Positions 2,717 to 45,613 of a DNA stretch of 64,000 bases are shown here, in pieces. Position numbers and translations under genes: made by a program. Position 1 is the first letter of the stretch; each line of letters begins with the position of its first letter. Below the pieces are notes generated by a model. It was not told where the DNA came from and ran no database searches. It was given only the letters and a program-made list of their open reading frames with translations. The stretch is from Mesostigma viride (lineage: Eukaryota; Streptophyta; Mesostigmatophyceae; Mesostigmatales; Mesostigmataceae): positions 2,158,287 through 2,222,286 of the forward strand of contig RPFO01000406.1 in NCBI GenBank assembly GCA_009746045.1, given 5' to 3'.

Positions 2717-4669
2717 GTGCGTCCTCTTATGTTCTTGAATGGTGGTTTAACCGTCCCTCACACTGTTGTAGACCCCTTCTTGCATGCTGATGAACTCCTG
2801 AATGTCTCTGTGTTGGTAGATAGCGGTGCGGCTAGCTCCTTTGTGAGCGAGGCCCTAGTTAGACGTTTAGGACTAGTCCCTACCCCTCACACCAAACCCG
2901 TTACTGTTCATTATGCTGATGGTCGCACCAGTCATTCCCCGGGTACGGTGTCCCTTCCCATGGTTATACAAGGACGTACTGTCAACCTGACGGCCACTAT
3001 AGGCCCTATCACTACCGCTGATGTATTACTAGGATTAGATTGGCACCAGGATAATAAGATTACTATTAATTATGATACCATGGTCATTTGGTTTCCAGAT
3101 AGCTCTTACTGGGTACCTGAACGTCATTATAGATTGGAAAACTTATCCTTGGTAGATATTACTCCTCCTACACCTGTTGATCCTCCTGTAAGACCTATGC
3201 CTGAAGTATTAATGTCAAATGACGAATTACGTTCTGAATTAAAGCAAAATGGATACCTATTATGTATGTTCCTTCAGTTAGAAGTACAAGAGATACCTAT
3301 CACTAATAATAGTGTGGATATAGATGTAAATACAGTGGATACAATAGGAGTAGGATTTACTGAAAATGAAATAGTAAGATACATGGCTGTGATAGATTCC
3401 TCAAAAGTATTTGAAGAAAAGACTCCTTCTTATCCTCCTCCTCGTTCTGTTTTACACCGTGTAGTTATCAAGGACGGTGCAGTTCCTACGCACTCTCCGA
3501 TGTATAGAATGGGCCCTACCGAGTTAAAGGAACTAAAACAGATTTTAGTGTCATTATTAGAAGCAGGATTGATAGAGCCTAGTAACTCCCCCTACTCAGC
3601 TGGTGTCCTGTTAGTTCCTAAGCCAAATGGCAAGTTTCGCCTAGTTACTGATTATAGGAAGTTGAATGATATTACTGTGAAATCTAAATACCCTCTACCT
3701 CGTATTGATGATATATTTAATAAGGTTAAAGGTTCCACTTGTTTCACAGTACTGGATTGTGCGGATGGTTTTTGGCAGTTGCGGATAGCTCCTGAGGATT
3801 GCCATAAAACCGCCTTTGCTACCCCTTTTGGTCATTACCAGTTTAGAGTAGCGGCTATGGGACTCTGTAACTCGCCTGCCTCTTTTCAAATGTTAATGAA
3901 TGAAGTGCTTAGACCTGTTATGGGAAATTCTCATCTTCCTCAGGTGTCCTCTGATCTAAAAGATCCTTCCTTCTCCTCTGTTTCTTTATCTGAGCATGAC
4001 CGTTCTTGTGCTCAAGCTTACTTAGATGATATTCTCATTTACTCTCCTGATTTTGAAACGCACCTACGTGATTTAAAGAAAGTATTAGAAATAATGGCTG
4101 AAAATTCTTTGTGGGCGCGCCGTGCTAAAGTTCGTTCGGGTAGGAGTGTCCCATTTTTAGGGCACGTTCTTTCAGATGCCGGGGTCGCTACCGACCCGGA
4201 TAAAACTAAGTCAATTCAGGAATGGCCTACTCCTACCGACGTTAAAGGTGTACGTAGTTTCCTAGGAATTGCTTCTTACTATAGGCGTTTTATCCCGCGT
4301 TTCGCAACTATAGCAGCCCCTATCAATCATTTATTAAAGAAGGATATCCCCTTTGTTTGGAGTAGTGAGTGTCAGTCTGCTTTTCAGTGCCTAAAATCCC
4401 TACTCCTTTCCCCTCCTGTACTCATCCTACCGGATACTACTAAACCCTTTGTTGTGGCTACAGATGCTAGTAAAGTAGCTATAGGTGGTGTCCTTCTCCA
4501 GGATCAGGGTCAGGGCTTACAGCCAATTGAGTATATCTCTAGGACAATGCTCCCTGCGGAGCGTAACTATCCCGTCCACCAGCAGGAACTCTTAGCTGTG
4601 GTGTATTGTTGCCACGCGTGGCAGCACTTCCTTAAGGGGAGGTGGCACCCCAAAAACCTTAAAATTTGA
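2717..4669 (+). CDS. pol: Gyp1 pol, 5' part: protease, reverse transcriptase and start of RNase H
   Basis: The frame is open from at least 2612, overlapping the gag stop, so pol is probably made by frameshifting. Retropepsin: VDSGAAS at about residues 34-40 of this ORF and VLLGLDW near 104-110. RT: LVTDYRKLND, QLRIAPEDCHKTAF, then the catalytic YLDDIL near residue 435. About 28 residues are inserted between the FQMLMN helix and YLDD, where most Ty3/gypsy RTs have only a few. RNase H starts at ATDASK near residue 581. At the TTAA at 4632-4635 TTAA-1 interrupts it; the residues after that belong to the insertion. Pol resumes at 7275. Confidence 0.9.
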   Translation: MRPLMFLNGGLTVPHTVVDPFLHADELLNVSVLVDSGAASSFVSEALVRRLGLVPTPHTKPVTVHYADGRTSHSPGTVSLPMVIQGRTVNLTATIGPITTADVLLGLDWHQDNKITINYDTMVIWFPDSSYWVPERHYRLENLSLVDITPPTPVDPPVRPMPEVLMSNDELRSELKQNGYLLCMFLQLEVQEIPITNNSVDIDVNTVDTIGVGFTENEIVRYMAVIDSSKVFEEKTPSYPPPRSVLHRVVIKDGAVPTHSPMYRMGPTELKELKQILVSLLEAGLIEPSNSPYSAGVLLVPKPNGKFRLVTDYRKLNDITVKSKYPLPRIDDIFNKVKGSTCFTVLDCADGFWQLRIAPEDCHKTAFATPFGHYQFRVAAMGLCNSPASFQMLMNEVLRPVMGNSHLPQVSSDLKDPSFSSVSLSEHDRSCAQAYLDDILIYSPDFETHLRDLKKVLEIMAENSLWARRAKVRSGRSVPFLGHVLSDAGVATDPDKTKSIQEWPTPTDVKGVRSFLGIASYYRRFIPRFATIAAPINHLLKKDIPFVWSSECQSAFQCLKSLLLSPPVLILPDTTKPFVVATDASKVAIGGVLLQDQGQGLQPIEYISRTMLPAERNYPVHQQELLAVVYCCHAWQHFLKGRWHPKNLKI

Positions 4670-20737: not shown

Positions 20738-21526
20738 CTCAGATAGGGAAACAGAGGAGAAGGAAGGATCCTTTAGATCAGAGGACACCTGAGGAAGGTG
20801 AGAATTTCCCATAACAGGTCTAAGCACTTCATTCATTAACATTTGAAAAGAGGCAGGCGAGTTACAGAGTCCCATAGCCGCTACTCTAAACTGGTAATGA
20901 CCAAAAGGGGTAGCAAAGGCGGTTTTATGGCAATCCTCAGGAGCTATCCGCAACTGCCAAAAACCATCCGCACAATCCAGTACTGTGAAACAAGTGGAAC
21001 CTTTAACCTTATTAAATATGTCATCAATACGAGGTAGAGGATATTTAGACTTCACAGTAATATCATTCAACTTCCTATAATCAGTAACTAGGCGAAACTT
21101 GCCATTTGGCTTAGGAACTAATAGGACACCAGCTGAGTAGGGGGAGTTACTAGGCTCTATCAATCCTGCTTCTAATAGCGACACTAAAATCTGTTTTAGT
21201 TCCTTTAATTCAGTAGGGCCCATTCTATACATCGGAGAGTGCGTAGGAACTGCACCGTCCTTAATAACTACACGGTGTAAAACAGAACGAGGAGGAGGAT
21301 AGGAAGGAGTCTTTTCTTCAAAAACTTTTGAGGAATCTATCACAGCCATGTATCTTACTATTTCATTTTCAGTAAATCCCACTCCTATTGTATCCACTGT
21401 GTTTATATCTATATCCACACTATTATTAGGGATAGGTATCTCCTGTACTTCTAACTGAAGGAACATACATAATAAATATCCATATTCCTTTAGTTCAGAA
21501 CGCAACTCATCATTGGACATTAATAC
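20738..21526 (-). pseudogene. pol: Gyp2 pol fragment: reverse transcriptase, cut before YLDD
   Basis: It begins at MSNDELRSELKEYGY and carries the RT fingers/palm (LVTDYRKLND, QLRIAPEDCHKTAF, FQMLMN). It ends at SLSE inside the insertion that precedes YLDD, because Gyp1 is inserted there. Upstream it connects with the protease part at 23305 once the hAT-like element is removed. Confidence 0.88.
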
Positions 21527-21823
21527 TTCAGGTACCAGGTTGGAAAATACGTGTGCGGGGTATAATACGTGGACTTAAAATACGCGTATTATACGTGGGG
21601 GGTATAAAATACGCCGTGGTAAAATGCGCGACAGTTTTTGTGGTCCAATTGTCAGTCACCCAATTAGCACGCTCCTTGATGATGGTCATTCAGTTATTAC
21701 AACTGAAATTTGGTGTATATGCTTATTTATTAGCATCTTCCATTTATGCCCTGCAATCCTATCTGATTATGATTTGTTAAATGCAGGGGGGAGCATGCTG
21801 CAACGGGAATAGTAAGGATTCAA

Positions 21824-22455
21824 TTAATTAATTGATTGTAAGGAAAGCCATCCACTATATAATGCATGAGAGGACATAAGACACAACTTCCGAGAAGGAG
21901 GGGTGACGTGCCCTCCTTTGTACTGGATCATGCCGGCCACCATCTGCTTGAAAGAGGCGCTCTCAGCCGCATTGAAGCAATGCCGTTCTCGATAAAAAAT
22001 TCGGCAGCCAGCAGCTGGACACCTTTCTCGTCGACGGGAACCAGCCATTTGGTGATGCTCAGCTGGCCTTTGCTGGGAACCGACGACAAGTCAGCCGGCG
22101 CAGCTGCCCCTCCCATCTCCGCCATTGCCCTGTTCAAATTGTGCTGCTTCTTGGCGTCTGACTGCTGCGACTTGTTGTTATACATCCTGAGAAACCTGCT
22201 CCGGATATTCGGTGGAATTTTGTCGCAGGGTAACATCCCTTCCCCTGCGATTCCGGCAAAGTGTGCACGGACTCGGAATACGCTGATTGCCCCCGCCCCG
22301 TATGAGAACTTCTTGTTGCAAAATGAGCAGAACTTATTCGACACAAACTGCGTTTTGTTACTAACAGCATCTGTGACTGCTTCTTTCTTCTCGAGAACGA
22401 AATCCCATTCAGGCCCTTTCTTCTTCATGGCTGCAAATCGAAAATGGCTGCACAC
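21824..22455 (-). pseudogene. hAT transposase N-terminal fragment with BED-type zinc finger
   Basis: The minus-strand ORF 22455-21928 has a BED-like finger (CSFCNKKFSYG ... RVRAHFAGI ... LPC). Then come PADLSSVPSKGQL and FFIENGIA, resembling the hAT stretch before the catalytic core. Near residue 155 the frame slips into the ORF 22048-21824, which continues FNAAESASFKQMV and TPPSRK, another hAT-typical stretch. The DDE core and dimerisation region are absent. It is therefore a frameshifted, truncated transposase. Confidence 0.65.
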
Positions 22456-22740
22456 TGTCGCACAGTCGCACTGGCCTCGTCGTCGCTATACCGTAGTGGC
22501 TCAAAACCCTTTGCGAATTAATATTTTTTCGAGGGTTTTTCTGCATGGTTTTGACACTTTGCGGGGAAAGTTCAGCACGTGTTAGGTAAACTTCGAGCCC
22601 GGGAGCTTGTTTATATTAGGGCACCTAGTTCAGTGTCTGACTTGGATTCTAACCTACCAAGTACATTAATTACCCACCAAGCGCAGTTCCTATCTGACAA
22701 TTAAATGAGTACCAGTATGACATAAGGCCCTAATCTTAAT

Positions 22741-22795
22741 TAATAGGGCCCCTAATCAGTGCTAATAGGGCCCCTAATCAGTGCTAATAGGGCCC
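22741..22795 (+). repeat. 22-bp tandem repeat, 2.5 copies
   Basis: Units begin TAATAGGGCCCCTAATCAGT at 22741, 22763 and 22785 (partial), inside the hAT-like element. Confidence 0.8.
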
Positions 22796-23304
22796 ATCTA
22801 GCTGCGCCGCGGCCTGCAGCCAGAAACAGGTGTAGCGGCGCTGCCCGGTTTTCATACTTTACGGGGTAAATTGGAGCATTATTTTAGCACTTTTCGGGGG
22901 GTCATTCGAAAATATTAATTCGCAAAGGGTTTTGAGCCACTACGGTATTGCATTACACCGTCAGTAGCACAGCTGGCATTTGCTGGCACACTGTTATTTA
23001 TGCGTTATGTACCTAGTCCTAGCTGTCTCCTACCGGCCAAACATTTTGCAAGGCTTGCGCTGTATGAAAAGAACTGTACGCATCTACTTCTAGTAGTAAA
23101 AATCTCAAATGTGCAGTGAGCGCGCCGCGCCCAGAACCTGGGCACCGCGCCAGTGCCCGCTGCCCGCTGGTACCCCCGAAAAATTCTAAGTCCAAACCGC
23201 GTGGTCAGACGTAAAATACGCGTAAAATACGTCGAGGCCCATAATATGCTTTATCCCGCATTTTATCGCAAAAGTGCGGCGTACAGACCAACCCGGTTCA
23301 GGTA

Positions 23305-23785
23305 TAGGTCTTACAGGAGGATCAACAGGTGTAGGAGGAGTAATATCTACCAAGGATAAATTTTCCAATCTATAATGACGTTCCGGTACCCAGTAAGAGC
23401 TATCTGGAAACCAGATGACCATGGTATCATAATTAATAGTAATCTTATTATCCTGGTGCCAATCTAATCCTAGTAATACATCAGCGGTAGTGATAGGGCC
23501 TATAGTGGCCGTCAGGTTGACAGTACGTCCTTGTATAACCATGGGAAGGGACACCGTACCCGGGGAATGACTGGTGCGACCATCAGCATAATGAACAGTG
23601 ACGGGTTTGGTGTGAGGGGTAGGGACTAGTCCTAAACGCCTAACTAGGGCCTCGCTCACAAAGGAGTTAGCCGCACCGCTATCTACCAACACAGAGACAT
23701 TCAAGAGTTCATCAGCGTGCAAGAAGGGGTCTACAACAGTGTGAGGGACGGTTAAACCACCATTCAAGAACATAAGAGGACGCAC
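23305..23785 (-). pseudogene. pol: Gyp2 pol fragment: retropepsin
   Basis: VDSGAANSFV gives the catalytic DSG and VLLGLDW the second retropepsin motif. It ends at DPPVRPIPE, where the hAT-like element begins. The residue after DSGAA is Asn where Gyp1 has Ser. The frame is open upstream toward gag. Confidence 0.88.
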
Positions 23786-23898
23786 ACGTAGTGGTAGGGA
23801 AGATTCAGCTCCTACAGAGGTTATAAAAACAGGCAGGCAAAAATTTTTATCTGGGGTACTATCTAAGGACCTGTCCAGGTTACCCCCGGCTGACAGGC

Positions 23899-24307
23899 CT
23901 ACTGTTCCCCCTCCCCCCCCAAATCCATAGGAACTAACCCCGACGAAGACCCTGGCGAAAAAGCCACTGCTGGAGGGTCACGAGGGAGCGAAGAGGGTGC
24001 GGGAGCCTGATTATCATAGGGGAACCCTGGGGGCCCTGCCTGCACAGCATTCAGCCTACTAGGGGTAGCTGAGGGAATGCGTCCTGATGTAGGACGAATA
24101 GGAGCACGCTGAGGGGTACGAGGAGGGCGTGCGTCGGGATGAGGGGGAGCACCCGAAAGGAACTTGGGGCACTCACGTTTAAGATGACCTACTTCCTTAC
24201 AATGATAGCATGTGATATGAGAGACATCAAGAGCTGATAGATCAGTAACACAGATATCTAATTCTTCTACATAGGAGTTCTCCTCCTCAGGGGTAAGGAT
24301 AATATTA
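23899..24307 (-). pseudogene. gag: Gyp2 gag, 3' part with zinc knuckle
   Basis: It resumes at NNIILTPEEENSYVEELD after TTAA-2 and holds the CCHC knuckle CYHCKEVGHLKREC. It ends VPMDLGGEGEQ at a stop reached because the poly-G run has 8 G. Pol is then in the -1 frame, as in Gyp3. Confidence 0.88.
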
Positions 24308-24311
24308 TTAA

Positions 24312-26573
24312 GGGGTCCGGACGGACCGGAATTATTTCGCGCCAAAAAATTCGCGCCGGTACCCGTCACGTGAAATTGTGGTGCACGATGCGCGTAACCC
24401 TTGCGCCAAGTTGGCCATGGCGACGTGCGTTAGGTAATAAATGCAGTAATATGGCAATAAGACCGCAGAAAATTATGCAGATGCGTCAAATTAAAGTTTC
24501 ATCATGATCTTGCGTAGCCGAAGATGCATTATTGACGAGATCGATGCCATTTTTCATCCGCGTTTGCGAGGGGGTCTGGCCCGGAAATCTTGCCGCAACG
24601 AATAAGCAGCAATACATGCCTACAGCGATAATTACAAAGGTTCTTAGTCCCTAGCGATGCAGAAAGCAACGTTCATTAACGGGGAGATTGAAAATGTTAA
24701 AGAACCTTTTATTTTATTACTTTTCCTCGTCATTTTCGGAAAGAAAACGCCAGGTCCTGCTTTATGCGCTGTCAACCCGTCCATGGGTGGCTGGCATTTC
24801 TTGCGCGCCTTGTCAGGAAAGATAGCATGCCATTGTACGTCTATTATCCAGTGGTTACCCCCGAAGTCTATTGCGTTTAGAAATCCCTTTATTCTAAGCT
24901 TTCAGCACGGTTTCCTGGAAGGGTGCGTTGTTTTGTTCGCCGCTTGCTGCATGCACGTCTCTAGTTTTCCGGCAGCTTTCAACCGATTCGCTTACGTTAT
25001 GCGTGGCAAGCTCTGAAATCCTGTCTAGGATTGATTTGGGTAATATCAAGGTAAGCTGCTACGTTAATGTAATGATATATGGAAGGATTTGGATGGCAGA
25101 GTGCTTATATTGCATATTCAACACGTACCCCGGCATGCCTCGAGGGCGGCATGCAACAAGCTGGCGAGCATATGAACCGTGCGTCTCAACGTGCTGGGAA
25201 ACAAGGTGGCTATACTTCTCTTGCTGGCCATGCTTTGTATATGTGTAAGCTATGCTTACGTGTGTGTTCTCTTTAGATTTGTGGATCACAGCCACTATGC
25301 ATCACAATCAATGTGCTCTCAAGGATGCTAGCCATGCTTATGAGGATGGCTGCAAGCCATTTCTCTTATGGCTTTGCTGTATTTCGTGTTTGCGCTTACA
25401 GTTCTGTTTTGTTGGTTGGTTTTTGAACGGGGTGATGTGAACCTGCAGGGTTAGAACATTGTGTTATTATTGCTGGTTGATTGAGGCATCATCCTCTACT
25501 CTAAGTCAGCATAGCACGTGTATATGAGCATGCTGTTTATGCACCTTATTGTTGAGCATGGTTTACAACCATGGTGAGGTGTGGGGTGTGGCTAGCATGT
25601 ACGAGTCACCCATCTAATCCCACATGTTTCTGTTGCTATTGAACGTTGCTTGGGCCTCTAAACATTTCTGTTATTACCAATGAAGATTGCCAACTATGCT
25701 ACCATAGTGTGGTGCTGCATGCTATGAATGACCTCTCTAGTACTCAAGGCTCATGCTCAGCTTGATCCTGCATTTGGTGGCTGTTTGTATAACTCAATTG
25801 GCAGCCGTCTATGTTAGGATTCTGATGATTTGTGGTGGGCAGGTGATGAAAAGGGTTATGTTTGAGCTCATGCCAGTCTATACTAGGGTTGAGGGGTGGC
25901 AGTTGAGGACACTAGTTTATGCCATCAGTCTAGCTCAGAATGACCTGAATTTTGATTCCAAGATAGTTTGCATGATAAATAACTTGCTGGCACCTTGTTT
26001 GCCCCACTTGGTGGTGGGCAAGGTTGTGATTGGTGCAGCCATTTGGCATAAAACCGTATTTTCGTGCATTTTTTTTTTTCATACAAAAGTGATGCCTGTT
26101 CACATACGTGGTCAGAATGAGCTGAAAATTGGTCCCATTGATATTCCCACCCTGTGGAAGTTATCTATATCTCCCTGGGCCCAACCCACGCGCATTTGAT
26201 TTGATTTTTTTTTTTTAGTCACAAAAAAGACGTATTTTTCGGTAAACTGCCAAAGTATGCCCAGACGTGCGATTTTGGTGCTGCAAATTAGCTCCATTCC
26301 TTGGTCTGGGTGGGGATTTGACTGGAATATGGTGTTTGGTACACAAGTGTGGGGGGGTTGTCCTAGGCAATCCGTGCTTTTAGGGGGTGTGCGCGCCAAA
26401 AAAAGCTCCCTGCACATGTATTGTGATGGGCCTTGAACTCAAAAAGTAGCCAGATGTGCACATGCCCAAGGGTCATATTTATGGTCCCCCATCATAATTT
26501 GCATTGCCAGCATGGGTATTGAGTGCAAAACATGTGTATTCAATTTGGGGGGGGGCAGGTCCGTCCGGACCCC
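24312..26573. mobile_element. TTAA-2: piggyBac-like non-autonomous element (2.26 kb)
   Basis: TTAA lies on both sides (24308-24311 and 26574-26577) with perfect 16-bp TIRs, GGGGTCCGGACGGACC. The empty site, TATTAATACGGG, is intact in Gyp1 near 2192-2200, which proves the insertion. I find no convincing ORF inside; the longest frames look random. The left end shares AAAAAATTCGCG and GGCCATGGCGAC with the right end of TTAA-1. Confidence 0.85.
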
Positions 26574-26577
26574 TTAA

Positions 26578-27910
26578 TACGGGAACGGGTAGGAAGAGAA
26601 GGGGTGGTGAAGAAATCTGCTACACGCAAGAGATGCTGGCGCACATGCTTGAGGGGCAGATCAGTAAAACGGTAGGCAGAGAACTGGCGCTTGACTTCAC
26701 GTAATAAGGGTCTACTGAGGCCTTGGAGGAAGCGAGCACGTACTTCTGCACCCGACAAATCTCTAATTCGTACCATCTGAGCATCAAACTCTTTCATATA
26801 CTCCTTAAATGATTTAGTACCCTGCTGCAAGGTACCAAAGGCTAATCTATCCTGCCAATCTGAATCAGGAGGGACTAAATGGTTCTCTAAACGCTTAAAC
26901 AATTCTGCTACAGAGTTAGGGTAGGCATGAGAGGCCAAGGACTCACACTGAATGAGGTTAGCAAGCTCAGGAGTAATACAGGTTGTAAGATAGTGAGGAA
27001 CTAATACAGCATCAGAAAGACGCCATCTATTATGATTCTGCCACGACTCCGTGTTCTGGGTAAGCAACATAATAAAGGTGAAAAACTGTTGAGGGGTAGA
27101 CTTGACATCCAGCTTGGGAAGGTTAGCAAAGAGGGGAAGAGCAGGGGGCTTAGGGGGATTAGAAGAGTCAGTTTTTCCCATAGGGCCACTATCTTCCACT
27201 GCTACATAAGCGGGATAGAAGGAAGGAAGAGGAAAAGTCTTGGGTAGGGGTCTAGAAGGGGCCACCGTTTCAGGCTGGTGCCCATAAGAGAAGGGGACAG
27301 CATATTGCTCACGAAGAGAGGAATAGGCAAAATGATCATAATTTCTATCATCTAGGGGCATGGTGCTGAAATCACTGTTAACTTCTAAATCAGCCACACG
27401 GGTAGGGACCTGGGCTGCCTCATAGGCCGTCTCAGGGTAGGACCAGGAAGCAGGTGGGTAAAAGGGAACTGCACTAGGGCGTCCAGAAGGACCGACAGGG
27501 GCAGAGGCACGACCCGTGTTAAGAGCAGGCATGGAAGGCACAGGGTGGGAAGGAGGCCTAGAAACATTGTTAGTTAGTGAGGACCTGCTGGAGGGTTGAG
27601 CCAAGGTTGCAGGAGGGGCAGGGGCCTGGTTCAGGGTAAGGGAAGGGTCATCACTAAATCTGACCTGCATACGTTGACGTTGTTCATAGGTAGGAGGGGT
27701 AAGTGAGGGACGACGGCGACCACCAGCAATAGGAGAAGGAGGTGAGGTACGAAGATTACCTTGAGGAGTGAGATGGTGCACCGTTTCAAGTGAGTCCCGT
27801 AGGTTACCACGATTGTTATTATGGTTGTTAATATTATTATTATTATTATTATTACTCATAGTAGGAGTATTGGTAGGTATAGGCGACATGTTACCACCCA
27901 CTGGATCCAT
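26578..27910 (-). pseudogene. gag: Gyp2 gag, 5' part with capsid
   Basis: It starts at ATG 27910 (MDPVGGN) and matches Gyp1 gag closely through RSRI, where TTAA-2 interrupts it. The Asn run near residues 20-33 is shaped slightly differently (NNNNNNNINNHNNN). The capsid motifs LPLFANLPKLD and FKEYMKEFDAQ are intact. Joined across TTAA-2 the gag frame continues at 24307. Confidence 0.9.
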
Positions 27911-34176: not shown

Positions 34177-34627
34177 TCACCCATGCACAGCATTGACTTG
34201 TGCTGCACCTGCTGCCATTTGTGCCTTGGCAGTGTGTGCTCTATGTAGAGCTTTTAGAGCCTCAGCAAATTTAGTCCTGGGGACAACAGGATCTGCTGCT
34301 TCGCGTGGCTGTTCCTGAGATGAGGGAGGAGCGACCTGCTGCTCATCCAGTGCACGTTCCTCCTGCCCAGTTGGACCAGTGGGCTGTGGTGGGGCTGCAC
34401 CACTGAGGAACACAGGAGCGTCTATGGTTGTGTTGCTTGCATCAGCTATGTCCCTAGCCAATTCACTGGGTGAGACCAACCCACCAGACTGAGGCTCTGA
34501 ATCCATGTCCAAGAATTCTACCCCTGACACGTCTGCCAAAGGAGGGTAATAAAGCTTCAGTCTATGCTTGCCAACCATTCGCTCTCTGTGATGCTGAATA
34601 GTCACCGTGTCACCTGTTTCTGACAAC
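34177..34627 (-). pseudogene. pol: Cop3 integrase C-terminal part
   Basis: It reads LSETGDTVTIQHHRERMVGK and KLYYPP, the SH3-like end of a copia integrase. It is separated by the 34628-45421 transposon and by the LINE from the preceding residues HSGRWH at about 47480. With both insertions removed the frame reads through. A linker rich in Ala, Pro and Gln then leads to the protease-like domain. Confidence 0.8.
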
Positions 34628-34658
34628 GAGGGGATTCATAAGTGTTTGCTCAATTTCA
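34628..34658 (+). repeat. Left 31-bp TIR of the DUF7869 element
   Basis: GAGGGGATTCATAAGTGTTT and the next 11 bases match the reverse complement of 45391-45421 without mismatch. Similarity decays just inside. Confidence 0.9.
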
Positions 34659-34798
34659 TAAATTTTACTCAATTTTTCCACATGTGATTAAATACACATA
34701 CGTTTTGTTCATTCAAATGCCATTTGCATGCGAGGCTCGGACAACGCCGCGGACTGTTTCACTTTTTCACTTTTTGGATGGTCCTTCGTTTCTCGCAT

Positions 34799-35460
34799 GT
34801 TCAGCCCAGTTCAGGCTGTACGACCTCAGTGTTGGGGGTCGGTGAATGGGTTCTCAATGGAATTCTCAATGGAATGCCGCAACAGCCCATTTTCATTGAG
34901 AATGCAAGCCCTTTTTGCATGTTCAGCCCAGTTCAGGCTGTACGGTCAGTGTTGGGGGTCGGTGAATGGGTTCTCAATGGAATTCTCAATGGAATGCCGC
35001 AACAGCCCATTTTCATTGAGAATGCAAGCCCTTTTTGCATGTTCAGCCCAGTTCAGGCTGTACGGTCAGTGTTGGGGGTCGGTGAATGGGTTCTCAATGG
35101 AATTCTCAATGGAATGCCGTTACAGCCCATTTTCATTGACTGAATGCAAGCCCTTTTTGCATGTTCAGCCCAGTTCAGGCTGTACGGTCAGTGTTGGGGG
35201 TCGGTGAATGGGTTCTCAATGGAATTCTCAATGGAATGCCGCAACAGCCCATTTTCATTGAGAATGCAAGCCCTTTTTGCATGTTCAGCCCAGTTCAGGC
35301 TGTACGGTCAGTGTTGGGGGTCGGTGAATGGGTTCTCAATGGAATTCTCAATGGAATGCCGTTACAGCCCATTTTCATTGAGAATGCAAGACCTTTTCGT
35401 TTGTTCTGGCTGTACGGTCAGTGTTGGGGGTCGGTGAATGAATTCTGAATGGAACTCTCA
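34799..35460 (+). repeat. Left subterminal tandem array, ~120-bp unit, about 5.5 copies
   Basis: Copies start GTTCAGCCCAGTTCAGGCTG at 34799, 34921, 35041, 35163 and 35283, with a degenerate last copy from about 35400. Each unit contains CTCAATGGAATT twice in near-tandem form. Since 120 is divisible by 3, long open frames run through it; I do not treat them as genes. Confidence 0.92.
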
Positions 35461-35687
35461 TGCGCCGCGCTGAGTCAGCGGAAGATCGAGCCACAAACGA
35501 GGCAGGAGAGGCATAATTGGGAGAGGCGTGCCAACATAATTGCGAGAGCTGCCATGGGCGGTCGTGAAGGTTCAGACTATTGGAGGCGCCGTGACGAATA
35601 TGGTGGGGGGCGCTGGAATTGGATGTCGTTGGAAATTGAAGAAGACCCTTGCCCCAGGCCCCCTGTTTTAGCCGGGGATGAGGCAGC

Positions 35688-36396
35688 TTGCTGGAGAATG
35701 GTCGTTGCCGTTTTGGTGTTGCTGCTCTTACGTCCCGACCACCAGGGGCCTGTCTCGTACAAGGGGAATTGATGCCCAGGCAGCGTCGATTCCCCTTGTA
35801 CGAGGCCTACAACGTCGTAGTAGACGTTGATCATGACGATCAGGTCGACCATCTGGATATCGGCAGTGATGACGATGATGATGTAGGTGGTGGGTGCCGC
35901 ACAGCAGGATTCAAATCATCAGCAACAACAGTACTGAAATACGCCTGTAATGCCCATGTGATCGCGGCAGAGCTGCGCGGGCGGTGTTGTAAACATAGAT
36001 GCATACAAGATCCCCAGAGCCCCCTGTCATCCTTTGTAATATGGGAGGCGGCACGTAGCAAATATTGGGGGCTGTCCTGCAATGAACGCCGGCAGCTGGT
36101 GGTGGGGCTCTTTGTCGCTGCCGGCCTGGAGCATGTGACAGTCACCTTGCCAGAGTTTGGCCGACACCATGGGAAATACGAATGCTCGGTGCCGGTTGTG
36201 GCGGAGGTGCTGGTGCATGGGCGACGGCACCACGTGGAGGGGTGCCACCATGCGATACGACGCATGTTTGGCATCGCCCACTCCACGTGGAGGACATACA
36301 TGGCCGTCGCCAAGGCGGCCTGCAAGCTTGATCACGAAGTCTGGGAGGCGGACACCCTCGACGCCGTGGGGTGTGAAATACCAGGAATCTCTCACG
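35688..36396 (+). CDS. DUF7869-like gene, first supported exon
   Basis: The open frame has an acidic stretch (DIGSDDDDDVGG), a Cys/His cluster (GRCCKHRC) and a probable folded part (KYWGLSCNERRQLVVGLFVA, HHVEGCHHAIRRMFGI). It ends at a consensus donor (CACG|GTAAG, GT at 36397). Joining to the acceptor AATGCAG|GC at 36796-36797 restores the frame of the next ORF (…GISHG + AGKREPS). The start is uncertain: an upstream ORF from 35449 in another frame could be an earlier exon. Confidence 0.6.
35756..35803. repeat. 16-bp inverted repeat in the first exon
   Basis: CTCGTACAAGGGGAAT and its reverse complement ATTCCCCTTGTACGAG are separated by about 16 bases. Possibly a regulatory stem-loop or a small insertion. 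Confidence 0.6.
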
Positions 36397-36797
36397 GTAA
36401 GAAGACATGCTATCGTTCTGCCCTTCCTCCTTTTGGATGCAATTCACCTTATTGCTGCCCTGTTTTGAGAAATCTGTATGAGAAATGCTACTGTGCCTGG
36501 CAAGCCAAAAAAAAAATTTTCCCCTCGCGGGGGGCGCTGGAAAACGGCAAAGGCAAAGCGGAGCCCGCCCACTTTGGGCGGGCTCCGCTTTGCCTTTGCC
36601 GTTTTCCAGCGCCCCCCGCGAGGGGAAAATTTTTTTTTTGGCTTGCCAGGCACATTTATTGTTGTTTCATTACTATGTTTAATACCTGATGTTGCTCTCG
36701 CGTGTGCATGTTGAGGATGACCCTGCATGGATAACTTATATTCTTGATGCCTCTGTTGGTAAACTTGTCCATGTGATGTGTGCCTTGTGCAATGCAG
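36397..36797 (+). other. GT-AG intron (401 nt) in the DUF7869-like gene
   Basis: Donor GGTAAGAAG and acceptor TGCAATGCAG; phase 1 on both sides. It is the only intron I can support in the window. It wholly contains the palindromic element at 36492-36654. Confidence 0.65.
36492..36654. mobile_element. Perfect 163-bp palindrome (foldback or snap-back MITE)
   Basis: Two 80-base arms are exact reverse complements around a 3-base loop (CTT). The outer ends read TGTGCCTGGCAAGCC, then A10T4 and a GC-rich core. No clear TSD is seen. It lies inside the intron, so a transcript would carry a very stable hairpin. Confidence 0.85.
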
Positions 36798-38920
36798 GCG
36801 CTGGCAAACGCGAGCCGAGTGTTGTGCAACAGCGTAAAGAATGGGCTGTGGACTGGATTGCGGCATACGTGCAGACGAATGGCTGCCGCGATCCCACACG
36901 CGACAATGTATTGCTGCTAGAGAAAGAGAACTTGAAAAACCTGTGGGAGCAGCAGTATTGTATGGATTGCATCGCGGTATGGGGCAACCCAACGGAGTCG
37001 AAAATGATGTACAAGTACACGGCCTTCACCATTCTGTGGAACGACGTCTGCGAGGGCAAATACAGCGACGGCTTGAAAATAGAGATGCAGAAAAACCGGC
37101 GCAATGTGGGGATTTGTGGGCACTGTGTGCTGTACCGTACCCTCCGTGCGGCAGCGGGAACCAATCGGGAGCAGCTGGAGCGCATCACCCTGGAGCGGAA
37201 TCGCCACCTGGCTGCCGTGCGAGTTGCGCGGCGCGAGTTTTGGAAGCGCCGCCGTGAGGGTGTGGATTGGCAGATCATATCCCTTGCGTGCGATAAGATC
37301 GACAGCAACAAGTCATACGTGCCGCACATGTGCGCGAAACACGAGGGTTGGGAAAACGGAATAAACACATTGTTTCGTTTCTCTCTCTTTTGTGTCGCAG
37401 CCCACGGGTGGAAAACTTGTTTCTTCCAGGTGCTCCCCTGGGTGGCTGTGGCAGATCAGTCGGGGGGCATCACCGTCACGCTGCTCATGTGGGTGCTCTG
37501 TGAGCTCATCAAGGCCAAGCCTTGGGAGGGGAAGGGGCTGCCGATGCCTGATACCCTCCACCTGCAACTCGACGGGGGATCTGAAAATCGCAACGACACG
37601 GTGCTGCTGTGGGCGTGGTGGCTGGTGGCGTCGGGCTTGTTCGCGCGTGTCGAGATTCATCGCCTGCCAAGGGGGCACACCCATCTCGACATCGATCAGA
37701 AATTCGGACAAGTTTGGGGGTACTTCAAGCTGGGGGCCAACGCACTGAAGGGTGCGGTGTGGCACACAGTGGAGGAGTATGGGGAAGCGGTCGTTGCCGC
37801 GTTTCGGCGTTCGGACACGTCGGACCTGGGTCGCACCACGCCCGCAGGCACGGTCTGCTGGACCATGGGCGCCGCCTACAACATCGCTGCGTGGCTCATG
37901 CTCTTGAAAGAGCCGGAGCTCGCGAACTGGGCGATGTCAACGGATTGGGTGGAAAACCCGCTGACGGGGGAGGCAGAAAAAAACACAAAGTCCTGCAAGG
38001 TTCACCATCTGATGTTGCGGCGTGCTGCGGACGGGGAAGTCTACTTGTGGTATAAATTCCATGACTTGCTCGAGTGGAGGCCGGACGGCGCCGACGGCGA
38101 GCACCCGCTGTGGACTAGGGAACACGACGACAAGGAGTTGTATGGGGTATTGGTGGTGGACGGGGAGAAGGTGGAGCGCGCACTTGGGACGGTGCCCTCG
38201 CTAGCAGGCTTGGATTTGGACTTCCTGGAGGGCAAGATGCCAGGAATCCAGAGAAAGATCAAGGGCTTGATGGCTGGAGGATACGCGCAGTATTTAAAGA
38301 AGGAGGGCATGGACAAGTGGGAGGCCTTCTGGCCTCTTGTTCCAACTGGTGTGGCCACCGTGCCTGCTGAATGGCAGCCCCCCAAGTGGCCAACTAGAGC
38401 GGAAATCCAGGCGCTGCGGCGACCCAATCAGAGCGGAGCAGGCCCGAGTGCCACCACTGACCTGGATGCGGAAACGCGTCTAGCATTGGAGGGTGCTCGT
38501 TGCTTCGTGCCGCTGGTTGACCCCGTTGTCCACGCGGGGCGGCCCGCTGCTGTGCGACGCGCAGAGGATGCAGCGGTCGCGCTAAAGCAAGCATCCGCTG
38601 CAGCATGGGAGGGCATCGAGGTGGGGAAGCCGGTGATGTGTCAACATCCGGGGCTAAAGGACGGCTGCGATCTTCTGTGCAGCCCCCTAATGCCTTTCAC
38701 TCCTTTGCTGTACGCGGTGGCCCGCAACATCACCGGCGACTTATCGCCAGACGCCGTGGTTGAACTTGAGTGCTACGGCTCGCACTCGTACACAACGCGG
38801 TTTTCGCCCTTCAGCCCGAGCTCGGCCCATTTCCCCCTGCCCGCCGCCACAAGGACAGGTACCCACACATTTTCAGTGAAGGCAAGCACAATCGTCTTGT
38901 CTTCGTGGCGTGCGGGGGGG
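36798..38920 (+). CDS. DUF7869-like protein, main exon (candidate transposase of the 10.8 kb element)
   Basis: It begins AGKREPSVVQQRKEW and contains WAVDWIAAYVQTNGCRDP, an arginine-rich helical stretch with CDKIDSNKSYVPHMC, then LHLQLDGGSENRN followed ~35 residues later by LPRGHTHLDIDQKFG. That D-x-G-x-EN plus GHTHxDID pair is the hallmark of the DUF7869 family, common in algal and other protist genomes. The spaced acidic residues recall an RNase H-fold nuclease, so a transposase role is plausible but inferred. The frame is open to 38944; coding probably passes to the +1-shifted frame at 38770-39453. Confidence 0.7.
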
Positions 38921-39453
38921 GCAAGGTGCGCCGGGTGGGCTTGACAAGCAGTGGCACATTGACGCAGCACACGAAGGATGCTGTTGTTGGGCTCTCGCTC
39001 GACTGGATTCAGTGGGATGGGTACGGAACCCCGGCGATGGCGGAGAAGACGGCGGTGGGACTTTTCAAATCGCGTGTCATGGACGTGCCAGAGCCGGAAT
39101 GGTTGGTGGGGACCCTGGTATGCAAGATATTTTCGGGCCCCAACTCGGGGGAGAAGCGGTATCATGGCCATGTGACGGCCTTTAGTAAGGAGCACGACAT
39201 GGCCCATCTGCTATACTCCGATGGCGACGATGAAATAGTGGGATTTGATGAGGTGCAGGCTGCGCTTTGCGCATGCCCCGGTGTGCAGTTGCCAAATCTT
39301 CCACCTGCGAGCATTGCGCGAGGGAAGGCGGACATTACTGAGTGCATTCGCAAGCAGGTCGCCCAGCGGTCCACGGCAATGAAGCAAGCCAAGGCCACCC
39401 CGCGCCACAAGCGCCGGCCTCCCATCATTCATGATTCAGACTCTGATGACTAG
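38770..39453 (+). CDS. DUF7869-like gene, C-terminal part with Tudor-like domain
   Basis: Overlapping frame with HNRLVFVACGGGKVRRVGL, then GTLVCKIFSGPNSGEKRYHG and LYSDGDDEIVGFDEV. That is the pattern of a PTM/Tudor-like barrel (V-K-F...G-V...Y-DGD-E), known for histone-tail or DNA binding. The tail is basic then acidic (HKRRPPIIHDSDSDD). The link to the preceding exon is unresolved: an intron in 38790-38900 or an indel in the 8-G run at 38914-38921 would both do. Confidence 0.6.
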   Translation: MLRLALVHNAVFALQPELGPFPPARRHKDRYPHIFSEGKHNRLVFVACGGGKVRRVGLTSSGTLTQHTKDAVVGLSLDWIQWDGYGTPAMAEKTAVGLFKSRVMDVPEPEWLVGTLVCKIFSGPNSGEKRYHGHVTAFSKEHDMAHLLYSDGDDEIVGFDEVQAALCACPGVQLPNLPPASIARGKADITECIRKQVAQRSTAMKQAKATPRHKRRPPIIHDSDSDD

Positions 39454-39604
39454 CCTTGCCGCATGTGGCTTTTAATTTTTCATGGCTGCCCTACCTTCTC
39501 GGTGCATGCTTTGCGGCTAGCAGCCTTGTGATCAACACATTCCGTGTCTTATGACCTTGGTTCATAGGTTTATTACATGTCCTTACAATTGGTACACTAG
39601 GAAC

Positions 39605-39960
39605 TCAGATTCTGAGAATTTTCTCAAAACCCTCAATTTTCTCACCTTTTGTGAGAATTTTTTGAGAAAATTGAGAAAAATCTCAATTTTTTTCCGCAAA
39701 CGCTAGGCAAAAAATCTCACCAGGGTGAGATTTTGGTGAGAAAAAGGGGGTTTTGGTGAGATTGGGGTGAGAAAAAACCCTAAAGTGAGAAAAAAGGTGA
39801 GAATGGGTGAGAAAAAGTGAGAAAATTTGAGAAAATTGAGAAAATTGAGAAGTTTCTCACCAACACGAGAAAAATCACTAACACGAGAAAAATCACAAGT
39901 CAACGTGGTGAGAAATTTCTCACCAAGAGTGTAACACGAGAAAAATCATGAGCTTTATTT
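39605..39960 (+). repeat. Left subterminal GTGAGAA-rich array
   Basis: More than a dozen GTGAGAA/TTCTCAC motifs at irregular spacing in an A/G-rich strand. The mirror array is at 43640-43980. Confidence 0.85.
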
Positions 39961-40103
39961 CATTAAGTCCTTAACGTGAAAAAAAACTCAACACCACTTT
40001 GATATGCATTATAGGGTGCACAAAGGTGCAATTAATATAGGGTTGTCATACAATATAAAACAGCACATCATTCCATAAACAATGCTGTCATGCCCAAATT
40101 AAA

Positions 40104-41192
40104 TCAATAGTCATCTTCTTCAGAACTGCTGTCCGAGGGGTTGCTTGCATCAACATCATCTTCTGATGACATAGTGTCATCCCCACTAGTGTCGCAATAG
40201 TTCACAGCTTTACGCTGCCTTCCACTGGCCCTCTTTGCCATAGGGACCTCCTCAATTACAACGGTGGGCTGGCTAGGTCCAGCATCTGTGGGAGCACCAC
40301 GCTTGCGGCTGCGCCCTCGAGCAGGTGCCTTGCCAGCGCGGCGCACCACGTCGCCATCACCTAGGTCTGCCGCTGCCACCTTCTTCTTCTTGGACCCCTT
40401 CTTCTTGCCTTTCTTCTTGCCACTAGGCGGTGGCGGTGGCATCGGCTCACCCTCCTCAATCACTTCAAACTGCGGCATGGTGGGGAAATCTGCTGCCACG
40501 CTGTGATACACATGGTTACTGAGGGCAGATTGCGCCTGATGTGCCATGCTCCATGGCAGTTTGGCAGGGATTACCACCATTTCGGGAGCATAGCATTCAT
40601 CGACGACATACCCAACTGAGCTCACTGCACCTGGCAACACAAGGCACGACGACCTGGGGGCCTGTGCGCTGCTGATGACCACCAACCTCTCGTGGGGCAG
40701 GTGAGCGACATGAAGGCGATCAAAAAGCTCCACCTTCAACAACAGCTGCCATTCCCAGCCCCCTCGTGGGTACTCTAACCTGGCCTTCAGAATGTGTGTA
40801 ATGAAACCAAAGTCTACACCGCCCGGGCCATGCACCGCAACTCCCGCATTCTTGTGCCGCTTTCCCTGGGATTGGTCCGCAGCCTCCGTGCGGTAGTTGA
40901 ACCTGTGTATCCTGACTTTGTGGAAAGAATCCGCGTAGCGCTTCACGCCCCCACACGCCGCTACAATGCCTTGCGGCACAAGCGGCGTCAGGTTTAATGA
41001 TGCCCATGCAAGCACGTTGAACGTTGTGTCAGCACAGCGATCTCGCCTGCATTCAAACAAACGCACACCGATAACCCAGCAAAGAGTATTATTATTGCAA
41101 GTATTGGTTATTAAAAAAAATAGAACAGATACAACACAGGACGCTTTTACTGGCGGCAAGATCATGGCACCCGGATGGGTAAAACCAAACAA
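40104..41192 (-). CDS. Unknown 362-codon protein of the CACTA-ended element
   Basis: The N-terminal two thirds look folded (TFNVLAWASLNLTPLVPQG, GWEWQLLLKVELFDRLHVAH, SSVGYVVDECYAPEMVVIP). It also has a proline run (MPPPPPSG), a strong nuclear-localisation-like stretch (GKKKGKKKGSKKKK), a second basic patch (RGRSRKRG) and an acidic Ser-rich tail (SSEDDVDASNPSDSSSEEDD). I recognise no domain. A nuclear DNA-binding accessory protein of the element, comparable in role to TnpA, is a guess. The first ~30 residues may not be translated. Confidence 0.55.
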   Translation of the reverse strand: MFGFTHPGAMILPPVKASCVVSVLFFLITNTCNNNTLCWVIGVRLFECRRDRCADTTFNVLAWASLNLTPLVPQGIVAACGGVKRYADSFHKVRIHRFNYRTEAADQSQGKRHKNAGVAVHGPGGVDFGFITHILKARLEYPRGGWEWQLLLKVELFDRLHVAHLPHERLVVISSAQAPRSSCLVLPGAVSSVGYVVDECYAPEMVVIPAKLPWSMAHQAQSALSNHVYHSVAADFPTMPQFEVIEEGEPMPPPPPSGKKKGKKKGSKKKKVAAADLGDGDVVRRAGKAPARGRSRKRGAPTDAGPSQPTVVIEEVPMAKRASGRQRKAVNYCDTSGDDTMSSEDDVDASNPSDSSSEEDDY

Positions 41193-41481
41193 ACTAGATA
41201 TTAATTACTAGGGCTGGCTTTGTGACAGTAAAACATGATTGCATGGCTAATCCCAAGGCGCCTTTCAATAGGACTGAATTAAAATAACCAAAGCAGACGG
41301 CGTAAGTAGCATTTGCAAAAAACAAGGCTCACCAGTAGGCCTCGTCGCCATTCGCAGGGTCGCTGTAATCAGCCTTGGGAAGGGCATCTTCTACCAGCAA
41401 ATCCCTTGCCGCGTTGTGTCAGCACAGCGATCCCCCCTGCATCCAAACAAAGGCACACCGATAACCAAGCAAAGAGTATGC
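41021..41481 (+). repeat. Direct repeat pair, ~70 bp
   Basis: Copies at about 41021-41092 and 41411-41481 share GTTGTGTCAGCACAGCGATC, then GCACACCGATAACC and GCAAAGAGTAT, with a few mismatches. The first copy overlaps the start of the 362-codon gene. Confidence 0.75.
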
Positions 41482-42428
41482 AAATGTGTAGCCTTGTTCA
41501 TTGAAATTATGGCTGGCTTACGCAAAGAGCGACTGTAAGATGACCTATACAGTGGGGCCGGAAACAGCTTGCTTGATCAGGGCGTGTTTTTCGAGCTTCA
41601 CTGGCCGGGAGTGTCTAGTGGTGAGAACCATTGCTGCGATCGCTTTCCCACCATTTACGAGGAAATACCCGCAAATGAAAAACCACTGAAACGGTCTAGC
41701 TAGTCAGTCATTACATTAGCCACATGCCATCATGCATGTTTCCAAACGTCCAGGAACTGCACACGGTGCAAATGCCATTTGCAGTGCAAAAATCCAGAGG
41801 ACACGACCTCATTGCTTCATATTTGTATGCAGAAGACTAAAAAAGTAACATGCATTAATGGCCCGCATGCATAAAGGGCCTGAATTCTGATGCGGGCCCA
41901 ACGGCAGCACCGCCAAAGCAGATAAGGGCCCGCAGTCTGATGCGGGCCCCACGGCACCACCGCCATAGCAGAGCTCGAAGGTCGTGGTGCGCGTGAAACG
42001 TACGTATGCCCTTTGTCGGTAGGTGCCGTTGGGGTCAAATTGGGTGCCGCCAAAATCGGGCCGACGCGTCAATAGACTGAGGCCGTCGATGAGAGCCATC
42101 ATGCGGCTTGGGGAACTTCAGCTAAGTTAACTTAACGCAAACCACTGGTCGCCCGCGTCGGGAACCGGCCCAACGGCTCTCCCGCAACAGAAAATTACGC
42201 GGCATACTGCATAAGTCGTCGGATTGTTAGATTTCGACGGTCAAGATTTCATGATGAGGTTTGCGTTCAATTTGCCGCAGTTTGCCGCCCAGAGAAAGTA
42301 GTTGTTGGACTCGTTGCCCACGATGAAACACAATCAAGCAAGCCGTTTCCGGCCCCACCGTGTAGGTCATGTAGTCGCTCTTCACGTCAGCCAGCCGTAA
42401 TTTCAATGCACAAGGCTACACATTTCCA
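41478..42428. repeat. Inverted repeat pair with ~95-bp arms inside the CACTA-ended element
   Basis: Arm 1 (about 41478-41577) includes TGTAGCCTTGTTCATTGAAA and CAGTGGGGCCGGAAAC. Arm 2 (about 42334-42424) carries the imperfect reverse complement (TTTCAATGCACAAGGCTACA, GTTTCCGGCCCCACCG). The arms enclose ~760 bp without a supported gene. It could be another nested foldback element. Confidence 0.65.
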
Positions 42429-43340
42429 TCTCCATTCATATTCATAATCCTGCACGACTCGAAAACGCGGACAAGATAACGGCAGGCTCGAGCTACCATG
42501 GTCCGGATTCTCCCGATTTCTGGCCTGCGCTGGTTGTCTCCTTGATATTGGCAACTCTCTCCGGTAAGAGATTTTCCGCAGTTTGGCTGTTTCGAAACGT
42601 TAATTAAGTGAGATGCCTTCGGATCAGGAGACTCACACAGCCGCGAAATCATGCCAAAGGTCATATGTTCGATCCCTTGCTGGTAGCTTCTGAGCTTTCT
42701 TATTTTCTGTGTTCCGCGGAATCTCAGATTTGGGCCGCTAGCGTTTTCACGTTTGTTGCTTTCTGATCCGACGACAACGTTGTGCCTTGCTCGTGTGACA
42801 TCTGGCGCATGGTGTGATTCATGTGTATGGTGCTGCCTTGCCACATGGGGCTGCTTTGCCATAAGAGTGAGTGTTGGGTTCTACACATTTGCTGCATGGA
42901 CCGTTAGGTGCTGGTGAGCTCTTCCTTGTAGAATGGTGATGTCTATGTCAAGGATCTGATGTCTTTTTTGTCTCTTGCACTGCTTTCATTTTAGGGGGAA
43001 TTATAGGTGTCATTATTTTGGCATTTGAAGGTATAGATGTTTATCTGCAAGGGCCTGTTTTTTTTCCCCCGGCCTCTTGCATGCATGGATGTGTAGAATT
43101 GTATGTTGATGGAATTATGATTTGCCATACACATTTGCTGAGCTCAAGATCCTTGTAGAACGCTTACATCTATGTCAAGGATCTGATTTCTTTTCCTCTT
43201 GCGTATATTGTGTCGGTTTGCTTTATTTCTTGCAGGGACCACGAGAGTAAAATGCAAGCGGTTCCACTTTCAAGTCAGCATGTGACGCCCTGTCGACCGG
43301 CCCGCTTTGTTAGCTAGCTACCATATAGTATTTGATGATA

Positions 43341-43490
43341 GGCATTGAATGCGAAAGATGTCATAACGCCATAACAGACTGTGTTGAACAGGCATTGAAT
43401 GCCGAAGATGTCATAACGCCATAACAGACTGTGTTGAAAAGGCATATTTGAATGCCGAAGATGTACATAACGCCATAACAGTGTTGAATA
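43341..43490 (+). repeat. ~50-bp minisatellite, 3 copies
   Basis: Units begin GGCATTGAATGCGAAAGATG (43341), GGCATTGAATGCCGAAGATG (43391) and GGCATATTTGAATGCCGAAG (43441). Confidence 0.85.
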
Positions 43491-43639
43491 GTTGAATCAA
43501 CGGGTTCTTGCAGCTGTAAACATTAAAATTATTCAAACATTTAATGAAAAAATCATTATTGTTCGTGCTGTTTTGAACAGCGGTTGTTACTGGCACTGCA
43601 TGCATGTGTCTGCTGCCAGCATATTGCATTATGGGTGTG

Positions 43640-43980
43640 TTTTTCAGCGCTGTGTTTTCTCACTTTTCTCACGTCCTGTTTTTCTCACTTTTCTCACTTT
43701 TCTCACGTCCTGATTTTCTCACTTTTCTCACGTTTCACACCTCCCGTTTTTCTCACTTATCTCACGTCCTGTTTTTTGAGATTTTTCTCACGTTTTTCCC
43801 CTTTTTTCACCTTTTTGGGGCAATCTCACCCGGGTGAGAAACGTGTTTTCTCACCCATTCTCACCCCATTCTCACCCTTTTTTCTCACCTTTCTCACCCA
43901 TTCTCACCCATTTCTCACCCTTTTTCTCACCTTTCTCACCCTTTTTCTCACCATTTCTCACCCATTCTCAAAGCCGAGTT
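43640..43980 (+). repeat. Right subterminal TTCTCAC array
   Basis: Dense TTCTCAC motifs in a C/T-rich strand, the inverted counterpart of 39605-39960, ending at the right TIR. Confidence 0.85.
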
Positions 43981-44104
43981 CCTAGTGTAGAACATATATC
44001 AAATGGGATAAAACCATATTTGGGTGAACAGGTTTCATGGCTCATGGCTCATCTATTTTTTTTCAATGGGATATGACGTAAAAGCTGGCAATGTGCATTT
44101 TCTA

Positions 44105-45330
44105 AATGCTGCCTGCAAGAATCCAGCCTGAAATGAGTTCATTTGTTCACTATTCATATTTGTTTCATGGAAGTTAACCGAGAAAATCACGAAAAACTGC
44201 ACATGTATGCTGTCACATGTCACCATTTGAGCTCAGAATGAGCCCAATTTTTGTGGGTGGTCTATTTTCATGGTCTAGATGCTGCCTGCAAGAATCCAGC
44301 CTGAAATGAGTTCATTTGTTCACTATTCATATTTGTTTCATGGAAGTTAACCGAGAAAATCACGAAAAACTGCACATGTATGCTGTCACATGTCACCATT
44401 TGAGCTCAGAATGAGCCCAATTTTTGTGGGTGGTCTATTTTCATGGTATAAATGCTGCCTGCAAGAATCCAGCCTGATATGAGTTCATTTGTTCACTATT
44501 CATATTTGTTTCATGTAAGAAAAGGGGGAAAATGACGAAAAACTGCACATGTATGCTGTCACATGTCACCATTTGAGCTCAGAATGAGCCCAATTTTTGT
44601 GGGTGGTCTATTTTCATGGTATAAATGCTGCCTGCAAGAATCCAGCCTGATATGAGTTCATTTGTCCACTATTCATATTTGTTTCATGTAAGAAAAGGGG
44701 GAAAATGACGAAAAACTGCACATGTATGCTGTCACATGTCACCATTTGAGCTCAGAATGAGCCCAATTTTTGTGGGTGGTCTATTTTCATGGTATAAATG
44801 CTGCCTGCAAGAATCCAGCCTGATATGAGTTCATTTGTTCACTATTCATATTTGTTTCATGTAAGAAAAGGGGGAAAATGACGAAAAACTGCACATGTAT
44901 GCTGTCACATGTCACCATTTGAGCTCAGAATGAGCCCAATTTTTGTGGGTGGTCTATTTTCATGGTATAAATGCTGCCTGCAAGAATCCAGCCTGATATG
45001 AGTTCATTTGTTCACTATTCATATTTGTTTCATGTAAGAAAAGGGGGAAAATGACGAAAAACTGCACATGTATGCTGTCACATGTCACCATTTGAGCTCA
45101 GAATGAGCCCAATTTTTGTGGGTGGTCTATTTTCATGGTATAAATGCTGCCTGCAAGAATCCAGCCTGAAATGAGTTCATTTGTCCACTATTCATATTTG
45201 TTTCATGTAAGTAAAGGGGGAAAATGACGAAAAACTGCACATGTATGCTGTCACATGTCACCATTTGAGCTCAGAATGAGCCCAATTTTTGTGGGTGGTC
45301 TATTTTCATGGTCTACATGCTGCCTGCAAC
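44105..45330 (+). repeat. Right subterminal satellite, 173-bp unit, 7 copies
   Basis: Copies start (A)ATGCTGCCTGCAAGAATCC near 44105, 44278, 44451, 44624, 44797, 44970 and 45143, with a partial eighth from 45315. The middle copies are almost identical to each other; the first two share GGAAGTTAACCGAG where later ones have GTAAGAAAAGGGGG. This fits homogenisation from the centre of the array. Confidence 0.93.
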
Positions 45331-45390
45331 AGTCCAGCTTTAGGTACCCTCAGATCTGAAAGATTTTTTTTTTACTCATTTGAAGACTTG

Positions 45391-45421
45391 TGAAATTGAG
45401 CAAACACTTATGAATCCCCTC
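45391..45421 (-). repeat. Right 31-bp TIR of the DUF7869 element
   Basis: Exact reverse complement of 34628-34658, followed by the TSD AAC. Confidence 0.9.
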
Positions 45422-45613
45422 AACCTGATGATTTCAGCTGGACCATGCCATCTACCCCCCACGAGCCACGAGCCACGAGCCACGAGGTAGCCATGGCTGT
45501 CGGAGCTCATAACTTTCACGTTTGAGCCCCGAATTCAGCTGTGAATATCACAATCGCTTCGTCTTTCTTAGACGCACATGCTGATATAATTTTCCAAAGC
45601 TATAACGCACTAT

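Follow-up and report, generated by a model that had tools for sequence, protein, structure and literature searches.

The element at positions 34628-45421 of a 64-kb stretch of the Mesostigma viride genome (C1435:2158287-2222286, referred to below as the window) very probably represents one member of an extensive cut-and-paste DNA transposon family in which the protein containing the domain DUF7869 acts as the transposase. This assessment rests mainly on the boundaries of the element, the duplications that flank it and its relatives, and the linkage between the DUF7869 gene and the terminal inverted repeats (TIRs). Mechanistically, the element would count as a cut-and-paste DDE transposon. Its transposase, termini and motif fit none of the superfamilies tested, and they are best read as those of a cut-and-paste DDD superfamily that is still undescribed. 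A testable function is thus provided for a domain listed as unknown in mosses, amphioxus and Mesostigma viride. The presence here of many near-identical copies of the DUF7869 gene would be explained by their belonging to transposons, and such genes should be masked as transposons instead of being counted as genes.

Boundaries, copy number and gene linkage

Genome searches were performed against the Mesostigma viride assembly (440 Mb, 2243 contigs). The left TIR (34628-34658, + strand) and the right TIR (45391-45421, - strand) are each 31 bp long and are identical at 31/31 bases, and the duplicated target site AAC lies directly outside each end (34625-34627 and 45422-45424), as had been described in an initial annotation of the window. 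A 24-base core of the TIR, searched with at most 3 mismatches, was found in the window only at the ends at 34628 and 45391 (100 shuffles, mean 0.00). The empty site, taken as the 40-base joined flanks with a single AAC, was located at 113 other places in the genome with at most 3 mismatches (reversed pattern, 0), and was exact in 98/100 among the matches listed. The host sequence around the insertion is itself a high-copy repeat that resembles the Copia type (RVT_2 at 1.3e-5, under the RVT_2 cut-off); the copies of it that carry no insertion define the two ends of the element to the base. Joining the flanks gives an open frame of 186 amino acids (aa), 36 residues of them past the junction. The initial annotation had taken this rejoined integrase frame as a sign that the element moved as a unit; the frame exists, but taken alone it is weak evidence, and the 113 empty-site copies are far stronger evidence.

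The TIR core of this family (family A) occurs 294 times in the genome (149 forward and 145 reverse, at most 3 mismatches; control 0), the left-end 40-mer 137 times (72 + 65), and the right-end 40-mer 141 times (69 + 72). Identical 3-bp flanks were observed in 9/11 TIR pairs tested, and the nine triplets are all different (AAC, ACA, TAT, TTT, TCG, GTA, TGG, TCA, and ATA). Matching flanks were absent from the pair on C1107 (CAG/CGG) and from a nested cluster on C2 (TCA/AAA). At C2:4785847-4805513, family A ends are nested, with one element apparently inside another in opposite orientation.

Ends were paired on contigs up to C1613 using, among the matches listed, 82 exact left ends and 92 right ends with no more than 1 mismatch; for 73 of the 82 left ends a properly oriented right end was found within 30 kb, at spacings from 3456 to 23223 bp. 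In a tblastn search for the gene, 62 out of 853 candidates received a score, which makes the gene counts minimum values; a near-identical DUF7869 open reading frame (ORF) was recovered at 19 or more loci with 95-100% identity, and residues 1-714 were covered at 13 of these. Six gene loci (C1912, C1978, C1813, two on C1945, and C2056) were left out of the pairing. The gene lies inside a listed TIR pair at 10/13 evaluable loci; among the remaining three, both ends are present on C1107 when the 24-mer is used, and C1392 and C1505 have one end each. At least 10 of the 73 TIR pairs therefore contain the gene. The initial annotation had proposed such a count, naming TIR pairs that always lack the gene, or a gene mostly outside TIR-bounded units, as outcomes that would speak against it; neither was found in family A or in family B, described below. 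Family A copies are mostly 98-99.9% identical across kilobases, and this near-identity points to recent activity.

Two further families carry DUF7869 proteins that are 33-37% identical to that of family A, each with its own TIRs and 3-bp duplications. Family B (36-37% identical) is exemplified by a 10131-bp copy on C2000 with 31-bp TIRs (one mismatch) and the duplication TCG/TCG. Its TIR pattern was found 34 + 35 times in the genome (control 0), some of these coming from a short-element variant. Both ends were listed at 9/10 of its gene loci, and the tenth (C1635) reaches N on the right. Duplications match in 9/11 cases, namely C2000 plus 8/10 further pairs, and the mismatched flanks are at C1690:3733516 (GTG/AGT) and on C1502 (AAT/ATG). 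The copies on C1635 and C2074 have a common left flank across the bases displayed; they may be alternative haplotypes. Family F (33% identical to family A over the compared part) is represented by two copies of 11210 and 11267 bp, both with matching duplications (TCT/TCT and CAT/CAT). Termini are GAG..CTC in families A and B and GGG..CCC in family F. A TIR variant, GAGGTGTTGC[GA]CTGG..., bounds several 2.5-4.2 kb units in the genome; these probably derive, in shortened form, from a B-related family. TIRs, a duplication of fixed length and a base-exact empty site characterize a cut-and-paste TIR DNA transposon, and these elements have moved in the past as bounded units.

A rival explanation is that the DUF7869 gene is cargo, encoding a passenger or regulatory protein, and that an unrelated transposase encoded elsewhere moves the elements in trans. 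In its favor, and weighing against a transposase role for DUF7869, 63 of the 73 family A TIR pairs have no scored gene copy (62/853 gene candidates scored), which means that the ends can move without a local gene. However, autonomous families usually leave gene-less copies, and one of the 63 (L074) arose by internal deletion and has kept its ends intact. Moreover, each of the three families, whose TIRs differ from one another, has a DUF7869 version of its own, an RNase H-like fold is predicted for the protein, its D residues are conserved, and the only other gene found in the elements is PHD-like, with no enzyme domain detected in Pfam scans. The cargo explanation was accordingly judged highly improbable. 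The transposase role proposed by the initial annotation is supported by the gene-TIR linkage together with the predicted fold and the conserved D residues.

The DUF7869 gene and its predicted fold

The reading frame at 36683-38941 matches PF25273 (DUF7869) at 2.3e-14, scoring 53.9 bits where the cut-off is 26, and this was the sole Pfam family above its cut-off for the DUF7869 proteins scanned. Across the genome, PF25273 scored above its cut-off at 150/150 scored places (275 candidates), and in 0/14 control genomes. The ORF matches the Mesostigma viride database protein P0002 over its whole length at 100%, with one D/G difference noted by eye. The 5' part of the gene is an open frame at 35682-36395 (+ strand) encoding a Cys-containing N-terminal region, where P0002 runs from MFGIAHS...GISH into GAGKREP. 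It is followed by an intron at 36396-36796 (+ strand), the ends of which were inferred from the P0002 gene model, and by the main exon at 36797-38941 (+ strand), which is open in the window copy and encodes the candidate transposase. A perfect palindrome with 80-bp arms lies in the intron (36492-36654); it is shorter in a copy of the element on C1469.

RNase H-like cores were present in two AlphaFold models of DUF7869 proteins, with model confidence of the core blocks ranging from 46 to 96. Structural comparison (VIA-align) returned DDE transposases or integrases for all 50 among the matches listed; superfamilies missing from these lists are not thereby excluded. Conservation was evaluated in 52 sequences. 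The first candidate catalytic residue, D166 (37292-37294, + strand), lies in strand 161-168 and is conserved in at least 90% of the sequences and in 8/8 aligned proteins. The second, D259 (37571-37573, + strand), at the end of strand 253-259, is invariant. The third, D300, at the start of helix 297-316, is encoded within 37676-37696 (+ strand), which specifies H294 to D300 (HTHLDID) of a GHTHxDxD motif; H294, H296, and D300 are invariant, and D298 is conserved in at least 90%. In the predicted models D166, D259, and D300 are placed where the catalytic triad belongs. By prediction and conservation, the protein has the features of an RNase H-like DDD/E transposase, and the check suggested by the initial annotation, a search for an RNase H fold with acidic residues, was thus positive in both models. 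A sequence search of the PDB with the ORF gave no match at E≤10, and no NCBIfam profile came near its cut-off.

According to the mechanism proposed, the Cys-containing, helical N-terminal region of the DUF7869 protein would bind the TIRs or the subterminal repeats, and the D166-D259-D300 site would excise the element and join it to the target. Cuts staggered by 3 bp, at targets with no evident sequence preference, would account for the 3-bp duplications.

A C-terminal Tudor-like region was identified at 38770-39450 (+ strand; PF21743 at 4.7e-4, under the PF21743 cut-off). It lies in a different frame from DUF7869 in the window, and both form a single 923-aa frame in the C1813 copy (L035). The initial annotation had described a DUF7869-like protein with a C-terminal Tudor-like domain; its first part holds, with PF25273 above the cut-off, but the second is qualified by the sub-threshold score and the change of frame. 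The frame break coincides with a G run (38905-38925) that has 8 G in 13/16 copies, the window included, 9 in two and 10 in one; L035, with 9, reads through. The run of 8 may reflect decay or an error in sequencing, or it may be a site of slippage. An intron joining the two frames was considered and dropped, as L035 has one uninterrupted frame and differs at the G run.

Complete copies and comparison with known superfamilies

The C1469 copy is 9983 bp long and has the duplication ATA. BLASTN comparison of both copies indicated that it contains ~3.84 kb of left-end sequence that is missing from the window copy, which is therefore partly deleted: the deletion junction is at 34694-34700, and C1469 bases 67-3903, comprising 173-bp repeats and a second gene, are gone. 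These repeats are inverted relative to, and 95-98% identical with, the right-end array of the window copy (44103-45338; 173-bp unit, 7.1 copies). The window copy also has a subterminal minisatellite at 34795-35460 (120-bp unit, 5.6 copies). The second gene of C1469 is a 706-aa reading frame on the strand opposite to DUF7869 and is common to families A, B and F (B versus F, 29% identity, 3.6e-28; A versus F, 1e-4; A versus B, 4e-4). Near the N-terminus of its protein, PHD-finger matches were obtained for B (4.9e-4), F (0.011), and A (0.1), all under the cut-off. DUF7869 had been reported as the only large gene outside the nested element; the complete copies of ~10 kb add the divergent PHD-like gene. 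In these copies its product would be a probable accessory protein contacting chromatin or the transposase, and since the gene is deleted from the window copy, that copy would depend on its provision in trans, should the gene be essential.

EnSpm/CACTA elements are ~10 kb long, with subterminal repeats and two genes, features that the DUF7869 elements share. EnSpm/CACTA also makes 3-bp duplications, but its termini are 5'-CAC..GTG-3' (PMC12730594), whereas the DUF7869 elements end in GAG or GGG. In its transposase, the interval from the second D to the last E contains C(2)C and H(3-4)H motifs (PMC12730594). Inspection by eye of 8 aligned DUF7869 proteins revealed no C(2)C in the stretch from D259 to D300. 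PIF/Harbinger elements target TWA, and their transposase has a DDE_Tnp_4-type profile; the DUF7869 elements resemble them in duplication length, but the nine family A duplications show no TWA preference, and the Pfam scan of the window frames gave no match to such a profile at E≤1, a distant relation being possible. Duplications of 3 bp are likewise made by Zator (PMC10045372) and canonical Harbinger (PMC12730594). The Zator transposase resembles ISAzo13 (PMC10045372), and no ISAzo13-like Pfam match was found at E≤1 in the profile scan of the window frames. KDZ (Zisupton) differs in duplicating 8 bp (PMC12730594). Mariner transposases (Mos1 and the SETMAR/Metnase transposase domain) were among the best structural matches; however, Tc1/mariner duplicates a TA target (PMC10045372), whereas the DUF7869 elements have 3-bp duplications of no fixed sequence, the GHTHxDxD motif, a size of ~10 kb and two genes. 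No mariner profile was above cut-off in the window frames. Retroviral and long-terminal-repeat retrotransposon integrases share the RNase H-like core and gave similar structural scores, but the DUF7869 element is TIR-bounded DNA, and no reverse transcriptase was found in its scanned frames.

Membership in a named superfamily such as Zator, PIF/Harbinger or EnSpm, with a transposase diverged beyond profile recognition, would be in keeping with the shared duplication length, the EnSpm-like subterminal arrays and two-gene layout, and the mariner structural matches. With PF25273 as the only family above cut-off, and with the termini, the missing C(2)C and the duplications differing as described, this explanation was considered unlikely. 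It is somewhat less unlikely, though still doubtful, that the elements were already described under another name, in Repbase or in a paper outside the literature searched, and are new only to Pfam and that literature. The repeat chart of a Mesostigma genome paper includes a TIR class (PMC6947507). However, DUF7869 was mentioned nowhere in the literature searched, and no report of DUF7869 elements was found among the transposon papers listed (Repbase and most subscription papers lay outside the search). The DUF7869 elements are likely to form a new, recently mobile superfamily with deletion derivatives that lend themselves to transposition assays.

The conserved PHD-like partner also invites comparison with RAG-type two-protein transposons. 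RAG-like (RAGL) transposons encode a RAG2-like partner with a PHD finger and make 5-bp duplications. The DUF7869 elements resemble them in having two genes and a transposase partner with a PHD finger (its match here being under the cut-off), but differ in their 3-bp duplications. The RAGL genes are convergent (PMC7204232), whereas those of the DUF7869 elements are divergent. No RAG1 or Transib profile was matched in the Pfam scan of the window frames. A more comprehensive model is possible, although its combined claims fall somewhat short of probable. In it, DUF7869 would define an undescribed DDD superfamily (GHTHxDxD, 3-bp duplications, GAG/GGG termini) across green plants and animals; complete elements would carry a conserved PHD-finger partner as an independent parallel to RAG1/RAG2, this chromatin reader would guide or restrain integration, and the Tudor-like tail of the transposase itself would serve as another reader.

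Relatives outside Mesostigma and other features of the window

Mosses and amphioxus were named among the DUF7869 relatives in the protein comparison. The window ORF retrieved nothing but its own match in protein searches, and no match when viral contigs were scanned with it. A DNA motif scan of contigs of other genomes yielded 12 matches, 4 of which (L004, L010, L012, and L013) have an upstream motif of the DGGSEN/DNAVGDNKN type and score as PF25273. The other 8 contig matches and a single viral match were dropped, being without the upstream motif. Along most of the core region, L004 shares 85% identity with a protein from Ceratodon. No clear TIR pair flanking the DUF7869 gene was found among inverted repeats in the four contigs. 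All four are contigs of bacterial metagenome-assembled genomes, and their DUF7869 genes make these contigs look eukaryotic. In L004, TTTAGCTCGA motifs are repeated on both sides of the gene, with none inside among the matches listed. In L013, a Tudor-like stretch was seen by eye on the + strand, 3' of the DUF7869 exon and in another frame, as in the window.

The element contains a nested 4393-bp element at 39595-43987, not of this family, with CACTAGGAACTC termini and a TA duplication. It had been recognized in the initial annotation, and the C1469 copy, which lacks it, provides its exact empty site. It has 12-bp CACTAGGAACTC ends, subterminal arrays rich in TGAGAA/TTCTCA, and a reading frame of 366 aa in which no Pfam family exceeds its cut-off; the element's CAC termini and TA duplication resemble those of Mirage or ESTA. 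Elsewhere in the window, 919-3994 and 20738-27850 contain long inverted copies of another repeat, which are 96-98% complementary.

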